A stretch of 37,314 bases of DNA, from IMG/VR virus record IMGVR_UViG_3300035698_002993, positions 1 through 37,314 of that record. One strand, written 5' to 3'. The notes beneath the pieces are model-generated. The model searched no databases and was not told where the DNA came from. It was given only the letters and a program-made list of their open reading frames with translations. Source of the DNA: a virus. Positions 8,169-36,658 of this stretch are shown one piece after another. Position numbers and translations under genes: made by a program. The first letter of the stretch is position 1. Every line of letters starts with the position of its first letter.

Positions 8169-9089
8169 ATGTTAATTGAAACAATACATCACGATAAGTT
8201 GGCTGGATATGTTGCTAATAAGCATATAGACTGGACTAGTTCTACTGGTGTAGATATTAGCATGGGTACAGGAGTAATTTGGCTTGGGACAGGAAACAAG
8301 TCTTGGATAGAAAACGATAGCGGTGATACCAAATTTGGGGTTGAAAGGGCGGGTGCCCAGCCAGACCCTTTTATACGTTTATCAGGGTATGATACTGTCT
8401 CTCCTGTTGGCGTTTACGCTCCTATTTTATATACAAACAATGGAACTCCACTTTATATTGATAGGGCACTTTATATACAAGATTTGACTTACAGTGGCGA
8501 TTCGGCTCTGAAATGTCTTAATGCTGATGGGTCAGAATATATTGAGTTTAGCTATGATGATGGCAATGATATGGGTGTGTTAAGGTCATCAACAGCTATA
8601 CAACTATCAGTAGGGAGTGGCGAAGTTAGAATTGGCCAATCTACGCACTTTGCTTTTGTAACAAATGGGGCAAAGCAAGCTGACCATTTCTGTAATTTAG
8701 CAGGGCCTTATACAATTCAAGGTGATGGAACAGTAAGTATATTATTTGATGATTTTGCCATTATGGAAATAGCTGGCGATGTACTTGTTACAGGTGCTAT
8801 CACGGATGACTATTCAGGTGGACTTAGATTATCACCTGCCCACACTGTAGCTGATGCTGGAAATCATACTATAACAAGGCATAATTATATTGACGTTCTA
8901 CAGCCAACGGAAACAGAAACATCTGGCACAATTACAATTACTGATGCCTGTATTATGAGATTTAATGCTGCTCTCGGCACTCACTTAGCTACGTCTAATG
9001 CCGATAAAACAGCTAATGCTAAGGACGGTACTTTAAAAGTAAATATAAATGGCACGCTATACCACATACAACTTTACGCTAATGCTTAG
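8169..9089 (+). CDS. Fibre-like structural protein (possible head fibre)
   Basis: A 306-residue beta-rich protein. The N-terminus contains HIDWTSSTG, a segment common at the start of repeat modules in phage fibre proteins. The C-terminus (LKVNINGTLYHIQLYANA) resembles the terminal domain seen in many phage adhesin or fibre proteins. Between them are Gly/Asp/Thr-rich strands. It is encoded between capsid and connector genes rather than with the tail-tip genes, so it may decorate the head. The fibre-like nature is from sequence pattern; the location on the virion is inference. Confidence 0.55.
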   Translation: MLIETIHHDKLAGYVANKHIDWTSSTGVDISMGTGVIWLGTGNKSWIENDSGDTKFGVERAGAQPDPFIRLSGYDTVSPVGVYAPILYTNNGTPLYIDRALYIQDLTYSGDSALKCLNADGSEYIEFSYDDGNDMGVLRSSTAIQLSVGSGEVRIGQSTHFAFVTNGAKQADHFCNLAGPYTIQGDGTVSILFDDFAIMEIAGDVLVTGAITDDYSGGLRLSPAHTVADAGNHTITRHNYIDVLQPTETETSGTITITDACIMRFNAALGTHLATSNADKTANAKDGTLKVNINGTLYHIQLYANA

Positions 9090-9097
9090 GAGTTATA

Positions 9098-9391
9098 ATG
9101 ATACGAAAAAGAAAAATAAGCAAAGACCTTGTAGCTATTGAAACTTACTATTGGACAGCGGAGTCAGGCGGTGAGATAGAGGTAATAGATTCACTGACTA
9201 AGTATGTCCGTCAAAACAATATAAACACTAGCGTTACACGTGCTAATGATAAGAAGGCACTCCTACAACAGTTAATCAAGGAAGACGAAATAGTTAAAGT
9301 AGATGCGGAATTGGCAGACATAGCCGACACGCAATCTGTAATGGACGGCGAAATCAGTAAGGATATAGAAGTTATAAACGATAAACAATAA
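9098..9391 (+). CDS. Hypothetical protein in head accessory block
   Basis: A 97-residue acidic protein, unrecognised. The first half reads as mixed strand and helix (ISKDLVAIETYYWTAESGG); the second half is helical and charged (ALLQQLIKEDEIVKVDAELADIADTQ). An AGGAG site precedes the ATG. It lies in a run of small late genes between the fibre-like protein and the connector, so it is probably a minor structural or assembly protein. Confidence 0.6.
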   Translation: MIRKRKISKDLVAIETYYWTAESGGEIEVIDSLTKYVRQNNINTSVTRANDKKALLQQLIKEDEIVKVDAELADIADTQSVMDGEISKDIEVINDKQ

Positions 9392-9420
9392 TACTTTATT
9401 GAATTAGGAAATAAAACAAA

Positions 9421-9735
9421 ATGAAAGTAAATGTAACCCAGATAATGATAGGACCAGATAAAAAACCATTGACAATTCTTGATGGTGTTAAAAGAACTGA
9501 AATTGAATTGACATTTCGTAGAGCCTGTACTGATGCTTTATATGGTATGAGTGCTGAAAAGGATAAAACCCTGACTGGCACAGAAAAGTATCTGAGACAT
9601 AAACTGGTTCAAAAGTTGTATGATACAGATGAAGTAGAATTAACTCGTGAAGATATTGTTGAGATTAAAACAAGAGTTGGAATTGTCTGTTACCCTGCGG
9701 TCGTCGGTGCAGTGTATGATATTTTAGAGGAATAA
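9421..9735 (+). CDS. Hypothetical conserved-type phage protein
   Basis: A 104-residue protein. It begins with a beta segment (MKVNVTQIMIGPDKKPLTI), has a helical middle (LTFRRACTDALYGMS), and ends VGIVCYPAVVGAVYDILEE. Proteins with this layout are frequent as small unknowns in tailed phages, but I know of no established function. AGGA lies upstream with long spacing. The next gene starts after one base, so the two are probably co-translated. Confidence 0.6.
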   Translation: MKVNVTQIMIGPDKKPLTILDGVKRTEIELTFRRACTDALYGMSAEKDKTLTGTEKYLRHKLVQKLYDTDEVELTREDIVEIKTRVGIVCYPAVVGAVYDILEE

Positions 9736-9736
9736 A

Positions 9737-10282
9737 ATGGCTAACGAAATAAAAGCTGTATATGCGACTGGTGCGACTTTAGATTTTAGTGTTTATTATG
9801 ACAATGCTGGAACTCTAACTGCCAGAGAAGTTGACCAAGCCATGACCGAGCAACCGGCAGGAAGTGGCCTATACAAAGGAACTCCAGCAGCTATTTCAGC
9901 AGGTGATATTGTAGTCATAGAGGAGGGTGCTGTCATTATAGGTTCTTCTGAATATCAACCAGAAACTAACGTGATACTTGTGAATGGTACGGCACAAACA
10001 GCTAACGATAATGGGGCTGACATAAATGAGATTCTTGTCGATACGGCAGAAATAGGCGTAGCCGGTGCAGGTCTTACAGATTTGGGTGGAATGTCAACCG
10101 CCATGAAAGCGGAAGTGAATGTTGAGGCCGATTCGGCCTTAACCGACTATGACCCTCCGACAAGAACGGAAGCAACGGAGGATAAGGCGGAAATAATTGG
10201 TGCGGATAGTGATACGTTGGAAACATTAAGCGACCAAATAGACGGAATCGCAACGGCAGCAGGTCAGCCGAGTTTGGAGTAA
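9737..10282 (+). CDS. Structural-type protein, Ala/Thr/Asp-rich
   Basis: A 181-residue protein, beta-rich in the first half (ATGATLDFSVYYDNAGTLTARE; VVIEEGAVIIGSSEY), helical and acidic in the second. The first half resembles the first ~100 residues of the following connector protein in style (TGATLDFSVYYDNAGT versus ENLTFTIQAKAGTGA), suggesting related Ig-like or jelly-roll modules. A minor head protein is likely by position. GAGGA precedes the start. Confidence 0.55.
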   Translation: MANEIKAVYATGATLDFSVYYDNAGTLTAREVDQAMTEQPAGSGLYKGTPAAISAGDIVVIEEGAVIIGSSEYQPETNVILVNGTAQTANDNGADINEILVDTAEIGVAGAGLTDLGGMSTAMKAEVNVEADSALTDYDPPTRTEATEDKAEIIGADSDTLETLSDQIDGIATAAGQPSLE

Positions 10283-10287
10283 AATAA

Positions 10288-11463
10288 ATGAGTTGTCCGA
10301 ATACATGTATATTGGGCGAAAATTTAACTTTCACGATTCAGGCGAAAGCTGGAACTGGTGCGCCAGTTGATGCCGATGCCCTACCGACATATAAAGTCTA
10401 TGAAGATGAGACTGGCACAGAGATATTATCTTGGACGATGGCGAAACTAGACGATGCCAATACAACCGGCTTTTATTCGGAACAAATAGCCTGCACGTCT
10501 GACAATGGCTTTGAAAGATTCAAATCGTACCACATAAGGACGGTCGCAGCGATTGGTGGCGTTGATGTAGTGGTGATTGATAGTTTTATATGCCTGCAAG
10601 GCGCGGACACGTTCACGGCCACGTCAGGGGCCTTAACGACCGTTGCGAACTTTAAGACTTATATCGGCAAGACAGATGTTACTGATGATGCCCTTTTAAC
10701 GTCTTTGGTTGCAAGGGCAACGAAAGCGATACAGGTGTATTGTGATAGAGATTTGGTGAGTACAACGTATCGGGAATTCTACGATGGCGATGGGTCTAAC
10801 GATTTATTGCTTAGAAATTACCCGATAACGTCTGTAACGAATGTATCGACTAGCATGGAAGATGTGATTAGCTTGATAAATACCAGTACCGATGCTCATC
10901 AGGCTTATGCGGATTGTAATAGTACGACTTTAACGGTTGGGATACAGGGTGGTACGAATGAGGGGACGGACGATTTGACTTTGGCAGATTATACGGTAAC
11001 GACTTTAATTGCTGCGATAGATGCTTTGGTCAAGAACTGGAACGCCACGTTATATAATTCGGGTTATGGCGTTTGGGGTGCTTCGGAAATAATACCTGCT
11101 TACGGTCTGAGTTGCAGGAATGATTATTGTTACCTGAAAGTTCCGGAGGAGTACGCGGACGATTTCGAGGTAGATGAAAACTCCGGTATGATATACCTGC
11201 CGAGTGGTTTCACAAGCGGCAGGAAAAATGTTTGTGTGCGGTATGTGGCCGGATATTCTACAACGCCGGCAGATTTAGAGCAGATTTGTATTGATTTAGT
11301 TAATTCTTACTGGCTCGGCAGAACTAAAGATTCGAGCGTTAAAAGCGAAAAGATAGGTGATTATAGTTATACAACTTCTGATTCATCAAGTGAGGCTGGT
11401 AGTGGACTGTCAGTTGATTTCAAGAACCGATTGGCTACTTATAAGAGATGGAGTTTTGAATGA
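10288..11463 (+). CDS. Head-tail connector (gp6-like) with extra N-terminal beta domain
   Basis: A 391-residue protein. Residues ~120-391 match the HK97 gp6-like/Phage_connect_1 adaptor pattern: VANFKTYIGKTDVTDDALLTSLVARATKAIQVYCDRDL, FYDGDGSNDLLLRNYPITSV and a C-terminal DLEQICIDLVNSYW. This protein binds under the portal. The adaptor domain is usually about 100-200 residues, so the N-terminal ~110 residues and a middle insertion (about 190-260) are extra. The N-terminal part is a beta domain like that of the preceding gene. The stop overlaps the next start by four bases. Confidence 0.8.
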   Translation: MSCPNTCILGENLTFTIQAKAGTGAPVDADALPTYKVYEDETGTEILSWTMAKLDDANTTGFYSEQIACTSDNGFERFKSYHIRTVAAIGGVDVVVIDSFICLQGADTFTATSGALTTVANFKTYIGKTDVTDDALLTSLVARATKAIQVYCDRDLVSTTYREFYDGDGSNDLLLRNYPITSVTNVSTSMEDVISLINTSTDAHQAYADCNSTTLTVGIQGGTNEGTDDLTLADYTVTTLIAAIDALVKNWNATLYNSGYGVWGASEIIPAYGLSCRNDYCYLKVPEEYADDFEVDENSGMIYLPSGFTSGRKNVCVRYVAGYSTTPADLEQICIDLVNSYWLGRTKDSSVKSEKIGDYSYTTSDSSSEAGSGLSVDFKNRLATYKRWSFE

Positions 11464-32708: not shown

Positions 32709-32869
32709 CAAAGCGCTAAAGCTACACACTTTTCACCCATAGGCCGTTCTGTGACCTCTGATAACAGCCAGATACCGTAGCCAGTATCCGTCTGATATAT
32801 GTATCTACCTTCCCTATCATCCTTGACCCGCCTTCTAATCTCTATTATTACTTTACTTAATCGTTCCAT
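32675..32869 (-). CDS. First gene of the - strand operon, hypothetical
   Basis: A 64-residue protein (SKVIIEIRRRVKDDREGRYI...YGIWLLSEVTERPMGEKCVA), small alpha/beta, unrecognised. AAAGG lies five bases before the ATG. It directly follows a candidate promoter, so its mRNA would have a very short leader. Confidence 0.58.
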   Translation of the reverse strand: MERLSKVIIEIRRRVKDDREGRYIYQTDTGYGIWLLSEVTERPMGEKCVALALWSREDKRVALV

Positions 32870-32945: not shown

Positions 32946-32966
32946 TTCGGCATTGTCCAAGCCGAA
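32946..32966. promoter_or_regulatory. Candidate operator palindrome TTCGGC-N9-GCCGAA
   Basis: Perfect 6-bp arms (32946-32951 and 32961-32966) lie between the leftward promoter and the rightward TTGACA at 32981, the position expected for a dimeric repressor site. Which protein binds is unknown. Confidence 0.5.
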
Positions 32967-33045: not shown

Positions 33046-33058
33046 TTGAGATTCTCAA
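33046..33058. promoter_or_regulatory. Candidate operator TTGAGA-T-TCTCAA
   Basis: A perfect 13-base dyad between two rightward promoters, ten bases upstream of the second -35. A plausible repressor or activator site; no direct evidence. Confidence 0.45.
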
Positions 33059-33067
33059 AGATTTTGC

Positions 33068-33096
33068 TTGCAATTTTGTGGGTATTATGGTATAAG
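33068..33096 (+). promoter_or_regulatory. Rightward promoter 2 (for small RNA)
   Basis: TTGCAA (33068-33073), 17 bases, TATAAG (33091-33096) with TGG directly before it. The start is expected near 33103, just ahead of the first pseudoknot arm. Confidence 0.55.
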
Positions 33097-33102
33097 TAAG
33101 TC

Positions 33103-33222
33103 ATGGATAGAATAAACATAGTCAAATACTTGGTTTGTGGAAAGCTAAACCCTTTCACTCTATCCATCACAAACCAATTAAATACGAAGTCCAGATGGTT
33201 ACCACTGTCTGGGCTTTTTTTT
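33103..33222 (+). ncRNA. Candidate ~120-nt small RNA with pseudoknot and terminator
   Basis: Stem 1: TGGATAGA (33104-33111) with TCTATCCA (33159-33166), 8 bp. Stem 2: TTGGTTTGTG (33130-33139) with CACAAACCAA (33168-33177), 10 bp. The arms interleave, so they form an H-type pseudoknot. A 5-bp hairpin GAAAG/CTTTC (33140-33144 and 33152-33156) sits in its loop. It ends in an intrinsic terminator. The region is also in frame with the next gene from an ATG at 33103 that has no ribosome-binding site; a leaderless peptide cannot be excluded but would have to read through the terminator. Confidence 0.65.
33187..33222 (+). terminator. Intrinsic (rho-independent) terminator
   Basis: AAGTCCAGA (33187-33195) pairs with TCTGGGCTT (33208-33216), nine pairs with one G-T, with an inner TGG-TTA-CCA hairpin. 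A run of eight T residues follows (33215-33222). Confidence 0.75.
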
Positions 33223-33237
33223 ACGTCTGGAGAAGAA

Positions 33238-33447
33238 ATGAAAGAATGTAAACAATGTAATAATGAGGGCACATACATACAAACAGGTGAGCCTTGTGCA
33301 TACTGTCACACAGGTAAACTCCAGGCCGAGAACGAGAGGTTATCGCAATTACTCAAAACAATATGGTTATCAAGGTTATCAAGGGGGAGTTCTATCCCTG
33401 CGAGTCTGATGTTTTTGAACAAACATACGAAAAGGCGGAATGAGTAA
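33238..33447 (+). CDS. Zinc-ribbon plus coiled-coil small protein
   Basis: A 69-residue protein starting MKECKQCNNEGTYIQTGEPC (CKQC...CAYC zinc ribbon), then KLQAENERLSQLLK, a coiled coil nearly identical to that of the gene at 22.2 kb. The last ~29 residues look less natural, and another frame there is more protein-like. Start chosen at the ATG after GGAG (five bases), not the in-frame ATG at 33103. It may normally end by shifting into the -1 frame. Confidence 0.55.
   Translation: MKECKQCNNEGTYIQTGEPCAYCHTGKLQAENERLSQLLKTIWLSRLSRGSSIPASLMFLNKHTKRRNE
33363..33443 (+). CDS. Possible 26-residue ORF in the -1 frame
   Basis: Reads MVIKVIKGEFYPCESDVFEQ then TYEKAE. The segment GEFYPCESDVFEQTYE is laid out like a short protein found in other phages, so this frame looks more real than the overlapping one. 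It lacks a clear ribosome-binding site. It could be a separate gene, the shifted end of the zinc-ribbon gene, or the effect of a single-base sequence error near 33350-33362. Confidence 0.35.
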   Translation: MVIKVIKGEFYPCESDVFEQTYEKAE

Positions 33448-33749
33448 AGACAATAGATTCAGAGTCCTGTTGTAGGATTATAGCCTTGCGAGGCAGACCA
33501 ACAGCCACGAGTCGGCATAGTAGGCTCAAATAGGTAACATTCTTAAGAGACGGATACACCCAAAACCGTCCCTGCAAAAGCAGTGGTTGGCACTCTCATT
33601 CCAGACCAGCTTGTTACCGGCGAAATAACGTTGAGAGACGGGTCGACTGCATACGGTCATTACGCTGGCAGTTGTCTTGTAGTCAAGCAAAGTATAGTTT
33701 GGCTTACAGGGTACTCCTGCGCCAGTATTATCTGGCAGAATGGTAACAC
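33448..33749. other. Unassigned 300-base stretch: short hairpins and one open frame without ATG
   Basis: No supported gene. Hairpins include CTGTTG/CAACAG (33467-33472 and 33499-33504) enclosing GCCT-TGCG-AGGC, GGTAACA/TGTTACC (33533-33539 and 33612-33618), CTGC-AAAA-GCAG, CTTG-TAGT-CAAG and GCCAG/CTGGC (33721-33725 and 33732-33736). One frame stays open from 33547 to a TAA at 33759 and reads like protein near its end (RDGSTAYGHYAGSCLVVKQS) but has no ATG; the best start would be a GTG at 33583. An 11-codon ORF (MSKDNRFRVLL) begins at 33440. It may be a broken gene, a structured RNA or an intron remnant. Confidence 0.4.
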
Positions 33750-34316
33750 ATGGCGGTAACTAAACTTAAAGGATTTAACCACAATAAGTGGTGTATAGTA
33801 TGTAAGAAACAAGCTAAATTAGATGTTCGGTTCAAGAGCCTTACTGGATACTACTGTAAGAAGTGTTATAAAAAATGGTGTACTAGAAGGAAATTAGAGA
33901 AAAAGAACGAACATGTCAAAAAACGACCATTTTCACCCAAAAGCAAAAACTCACTTAAAAGTAAACAAAAGACCGTAACTAAAAGAGTTTTAAATTTACG
34001 CCGAAGAGCAACACCTGCTGAACTCTGTTTTTTAAAGAAACTCAAAAAAGTGTGTCCGGTAAAATTTAAGTTCCAGCGAGGATTTATAAAAGGTGGCTAT
34101 TATGCTATTGTTGACTTCCATATCCCGTCAAGAAAGTTGTGTATTGAAATTGATGGTGGCTACCACGACAACCCTGAACAGCAGAAAAAGGACACAAGAA
34201 GGGATAATTGGCTTCGGGATAGACGCAAACAACGAGTTATCCGCATAACCAACCAACGAGCCTTTGATATTACCCCCGAAGAAGTGAAGGGGCTAATAGC
34301 AATAGTCCGCTTATAA
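33750..34316 (+). CDS. DUF559/Vsr-like endonuclease with N-terminal zinc ribbon
   Basis: A 188-residue protein. Residues ~15-45 contain CIVC ... CKKC, a zinc ribbon, followed by a very basic linker. The nuclease domain (~85-188) has RRATPAELCFLKKL, then KFQRGFIKGGYYAIVDFHIP and KLCIEIDGGYHDN, and the end RVIRITNQRAFDITPEEV. The AE..., VDF and EIDG acids are those of the DUF559/very-short-patch-like PD-(D/E)XK nucleases. Such enzymes can be homing or repair nucleases. No clear ribosome-binding site; it starts within the end of the open frame described just upstream. Confidence 0.75.
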   Translation: MAVTKLKGFNHNKWCIVCKKQAKLDVRFKSLTGYYCKKCYKKWCTRRKLEKKNEHVKKRPFSPKSKNSLKSKQKTVTKRVLNLRRRATPAELCFLKKLKKVCPVKFKFQRGFIKGGYYAIVDFHIPSRKLCIEIDGGYHDNPEQQKKDTRRDNWLRDRRKQRVIRITNQRAFDITPEEVKGLIAIVRL

Positions 34317-36261: not shown

Positions 36262-36292
36262 GCAATAAAGTTTAGAAAGTTCAAAATAGTTC

Positions 36293-36321
36293 TTGACAAA
36301 ATGACATTATTATGCTATGGT
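36293..36321 (+). promoter_or_regulatory. Rightward promoter, AATAGTTC-TTGACA family
   Basis: TTGACA (36293-36298), 17 bases, TATGGT (36316-36321), with TTATGC before the -10. It lies back to back with the leftward promoter. The next gene starts ~110 bases further; between is AT-rich sequence without a gene. Confidence 0.65.
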
Positions 36322-36613: not shown

Positions 36614-36629
36614 AATAACAATTTAGCTC

Positions 36630-36658
36630 TTGACATTTAGGCATTATTATGCTATATA
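36630..36658 (+). promoter_or_regulatory. Rightward promoter, TTTAGCTC-TTGACA family
   Basis: TTGACA (36630-36635), 17 bases, TATATA (36653-36658), with TTATGC before it. A third -35 of the same family (AATAGCTC-TTGACA, 36685-36690) follows, with a weak -10 near 36708. Confidence 0.7.

Follow-up and report, generated by a model that had tools for sequence, protein, structure and literature searches.

The divergent control region of the phage, in which leftward genes begin at 32869 and rightward genes at 33238, houses a short non-coding RNA unit that we tentatively read, with a probability of roughly 40%, as the structured, terminator-ended leader of a short rightward transcription unit, limiting read-through in cis (Table 1). 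The non-coding element itself is real and probably transcribed, and its kind is common. All positions refer to the window, i.e., the whole stretch of DNA that was analyzed, a viral record 37,314 bases long. An earlier sequence-only reading had proposed a non-coding unit of ~120 nt, composed of promoter, stems and terminator, at this divergent control region; the location is borne out by the gene starts on either side, and the unit is supported by the presence of its elements and by non-coding codon usage. Should the pseudoknot described below be real and govern read-through, the few RNA-only control elements known would be joined by a phage leader RNA whose sequence and layout are both new; at present, the case is built on a single genome, and the succession of a promoter, a structured leader, a terminator and a small gene is a common one.

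Table 1. Features of the RNA unit and its immediate surroundings.
Feature	Positions	Strand	Remarks
P1	32981..33008	+	TTGACA-N16-TACAAT, TG before -10; 11/12; promoter-like, predicted
13-base palindrome (TTGAGATTCTCAA)	33046..33058	no strand	Between P1 and P2; read directly from sequence
P2	33068..33096	+	TTGCAA-N17-TATAAG, TGn extension; 9/12 to consensus; promoter-like, predicted
S1 5' arm (ATGGATAGA)	33103..33111	+	Stem read from sequence
S2 5' arm (TTGGTTTGTG)	33130..33139	+	Stem read from sequence
Hairpin GAAAG-CTAAACC-CTTTC	33140..33156	+	Inside pseudoknot loop
S1 3' arm (TCTATCCAT)	33159..33167	+	Stem read from sequence
S2 3' arm (CACAAACCAA)	33168..33177	+	Stem read from sequence; abuts S1 3' arm
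Intrinsic terminator	33186..33222	+	14-pair stem, 4-base loop, T8; predicted
Shine-Dalgarno GGAG	33229..33232	+	6 bases past T-run
69-aa ORF	33238..33447	+	ATG at 33238; CxxC...CxxC zinc-ribbon (DnaJ-like) pattern

Of the two promoter-like sites, P1 ranks among the best in the window, has an expected start at ~33015 and lies 87 bases upstream of P2, to which it is much superior as a match; it had been overlooked in favor of the weaker P2. The latter is present as originally described (boxes at 33068-33073 and 33091-33096), but its -35 box is weak and the site is unremarkable on its own, as sites of this quality are about equally frequent in the window and in shuffled sequences. The predicted +1 of P2 is A33103 (C-A start, seven bases past the -10 box), which is also the first base of S1. 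The palindrome between the two sites is a possible operator, and a further possible operator in the divergent control region is the inverted repeat TTCGGC-N9-GCCGAA at 32946-32966.

The frame starting at 33103 runs open through to the 69-aa ORF. Its codon usage over 33103-33237 scores -0.20 bits per codon, compared with 0.19 +/- 0.12 for the real genes of this phage, and the search for protein relatives returned chance-level matches only (E of 4 or more), hence translation of this frame was rejected.

Within 120 bases, the unit contains two interleaved stems, a hairpin and the terminator. S1 consists of nine perfect Watson-Crick pairs, one more than initially counted, and S2 of ten, as reported; the two are interleaved and their 3' arms touch. 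The 5-bp hairpin noted in the pseudoknot loop is likewise present (33140-33144/33152-33156) and starts without a gap after the S2 5' arm. This layout is unusual for a pseudoknot, in that the 3' arms of S1 and S2 are joined directly and a hairpin replaces the short middle loop. RNAfold of 33090-33225 gives -37.5 kcal/mol (z = -4.6, much of which is contributed by the terminator). In the nested model, S1 has a probability of >0.99 and the hairpin a pair probability of ~0.87, while S2 is nearly missing, because its 5' arm pairs with the loop AUAAAC, extending S1. The nested minimum free energy of 33103-33177 is -17.1 kcal/mol. The helix energies (S1 -14.8, S2 -16.4 and hairpin -2.4) sum to ~-34 kcal/mol before any pseudoknot penalty, which amounts to ~9-10 kcal/mol in the Dirks-Pierce model, leading to an estimate of roughly -24 kcal/mol for the pseudoknot; the pseudoknot should therefore be favored over the nested fold, provided that no strain arises in its loops. 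The loop at 33112-33129, of 18 nt, has sufficient length to cross both stems when stacked. As no RNA relative was found, covariation support is lacking, and the pseudoknot, seen in a single sequence, is plausible but unproven.

The terminator is by far the strongest terminator-like site in the window and separates the promoters from the next gene. Its stem (33186-33199/33204-33217, 4 of 14 pairs G-U) had been described as 9 bp long, which corresponds to the core of the 14 pairs, whereas the T8 run (33215-33222) was correctly identified. What had been missed is the Shine-Dalgarno sequence and ATG just past the T-run, all three fitting in 26 bases, and with it a leader role of the element, with the terminator as a gate. 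No promoter-like site was detected between the terminator and the ATG at 33238, so that, barring an undetected promoter, this gene would be reached by read-through. For the product of the 69-aa ORF, the searches yielded nothing beyond weak DnaJ-like matches, one of them with E = 0.043, which falls below the curated cut-off. Within the ORF, at 33361-33444, the third frame (MVIKVIKGEFYPCESDVFEQTYEKAE) is coding-like in codon usage and the zinc-ribbon frame loses its coding signal; 58 bases of this segment share 83% identity with a gene for a hypothetical protein in Streptococcus phage Javan345, and the segment has the appearance of a phage gene's 3' end that was fused to the zinc-ribbon ORF in a different frame.

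For the proposed leader, transcription from P1 and/or P2 would yield a non-coding RNA of ~208 or 120 nt, respectively, and most transcripts would end in the T-run. S1 and S2 would fold in the nascent RNA once the 19-nt 3' strand (33159-33177) emerges, and may stack to form a quasi-continuous 19-bp helix alongside the hairpin. The terminator would hold the zinc-ribbon gene and the genes downstream of it at a low, read-through level, and this level would rise or fall under the action of a phage or host factor or of the pseudoknot itself. P1 and the terminator are on the same strand and ~180 bases apart. With the terminator between promoter and gene, and none after, the unit resembles a terminated leader in its layout, but not a classical attenuator: a classical antiterminator helix is absent, as the terminator 5' arm forms no more than seven pairs, two of them G-U, with its best alternative partner. 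Part of this arm (33190-33197) could also pair with 33224-33231 and thereby cover the Shine-Dalgarno sequence (eight pairs, one G-U), but, since the terminator hairpin is stronger, this pairing would matter only if the hairpin is disrupted.

The PR'-6S RNA-tR' unit of phage lambda is a terminated leader transcript. Together with early genes of lambdoid phages, it shares with the present unit a promoter, an untranslated leader of ~120-210 nt, an intrinsic terminator and same-strand genes beyond it. The location of early phage genes behind terminators is a known pattern (PMC9378689). In contrast to the lambda-type leaders, no antiterminator protein or site was identified here, the predicted fold is a pseudoknot and there is no sequence relation.

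A serious rival to the leader, although we consider it rather unlikely, is a discrete trans-acting phage sRNA of ~120 nt, transcribed from P2 and acting by base pairing or, via the pseudoknot, as a protein-binding decoy. That the predicted start of P2 falls on the first base of S1 suits such an sRNA at least as well as it suits the leader, the fold is compact and has its own terminator with T8, and phage-encoded sRNAs are known; DicF and others, too, are short, non-coding and phage-encoded, and have an intrinsic terminator (PMC12197685). Unlike these, the RNA described here has no target found in the phage window and no relative found: complementarity to the window is at chance level (matches of 10-11 nt, at about the expected number of 10-mers). 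An antisense RNA to other genes of the window was rejected. A trans function is possible, with no positive evidence for it in this analysis, and P2, on which it depends, is weak. The cis leader fits the layout at least equally well, because the terminator directly precedes a same-strand gene with no intervening promoter, and the stronger P1 lies upstream; on the other side, with no relative found, comparative support is lacking for the stems and for the leader layout alike. Less probable still, yet of appreciable weight, is an ordinary phage leader and terminator in which the interleaved stems are a functionless chance feature. S1 and S2 are the only interleaved perfect pair totaling at least 18 bp in the window, but an interleaved pair of at least 19 bp occurs in 4.3% of 800 dinucleotide-shuffled windows, and the reader had searched freely; moreover, the stems come from one sequence without covariation, and the nested model is dominated by S1. 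Chance is made much less likely by the adjacent arms and by the site exactly between promoter and terminator. A pair of at least 19 bp with two arms within 2 nt of each other is found in 0.9% of the shuffled windows (n = 800), and local shuffles of 33096-33222 give 7 in 80,000. The arrangement exceeds chance expectation. Since the statistic was chosen after the feature had been seen, the true chance level is at least as high as these figures suggest.

Further readings carry little weight. It is improbable that the RNA is a new phage pseudoknot that either brings about antitermination without any protein or acts as a decoy, capturing an RNA-binding defense protein of the host. The put RNA of phage HK022, ~70 nt long and built of two successive stem-loops (PMC9378689), is likewise a structured RNA that lies near an early promoter and has a terminator downstream. 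Its defining features also include a conserved put sequence and antitermination by binding to RNA polymerase; here the stems are interleaved and the site has no similarity to any phage record, hence put was rejected. Very improbable is a unit resembling type III toxin-antitoxin systems, or a phage RNA that mimics their antitoxin. The order of parts is that of toxIN loci, i.e., promoter, pseudoknot RNA, short terminator and ORF (PMC8860590), and ToxI and CptI are similarly followed by a terminator and an ORF. However, Tandem Repeats Finder detected no tandem repeat array at 33103-33177, the pseudoknot spans ~75 nt with a different loop layout, and the downstream 69-aa zinc ribbon matches no defense or toxin model in Pfam, PHROGs, NCBIfam or PADLOC. 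With both the tandem repeats and a ToxN/CptN/TenpN endoribonuclease missing, a type III antitoxin was rejected. ToxIN (PMC8860590), CptIN (PMC4627078) and HK022 put (PMC9378689) thus share order or position with the unit, but not their defining features.

Relatives of the RNA were sought in phages, plasmids, IMG/VR, Rfam and 398 genomes, and none was found in these collections, which may omit very near records. When the region was compared with phages and plasmids by blastn, no relative of the RNA was returned. Three exact patterns, one combining the hairpin and the S2 5' arm, one covering the two 3' arms as joined and one allowing a variable loop in S2, were searched in 2.9 million viral contigs, where the matches were unrelated, being S2-like or confined to a single arm. 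A covariance model built from the single sequence gave one match over the 398 genomes (E = 0.07), as expected by chance, and Rfam gave no match at gathering score in the window, with only terminator-like matches to ctRNA_pGA1 and sar below threshold. Nothing close emerged from protein-guided searches, for which the terminase, the zinc ribbon, the leftward protein of 159 aa, the DUF559 protein and the exonuclease served as queries. For the terminase, identity to the sequences found does not exceed 50%, its relatives being in Halanaerobiia genomes, which do not share the control region, and also in Natroniella acetigena. A short DNA match near the Natroniella terminase was rejected as a repetitive stretch inside an unrelated gene. 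In N. acetigena (8504-11350), the match to the terminase large subunit is in two pieces ~1.2 kb apart, apparently within one 953-aa open frame, as an intein would give.

Downstream of the unit, 33750-34316 encodes a DUF559 endonuclease-like protein (Pfam PF04480, E = 2e-13) with a zinc-ribbon-like N-terminal part, possibly a free-standing homing endonuclease, the start of whose gene overlaps the 3' end of a 58-aa ORF (33583-33759). Further along, two 37-base copies (36282-36318 and 36619-36655), which are 78% alike and 337 bases apart, are promoter-like and contain TTGACA and TATGCTAT.
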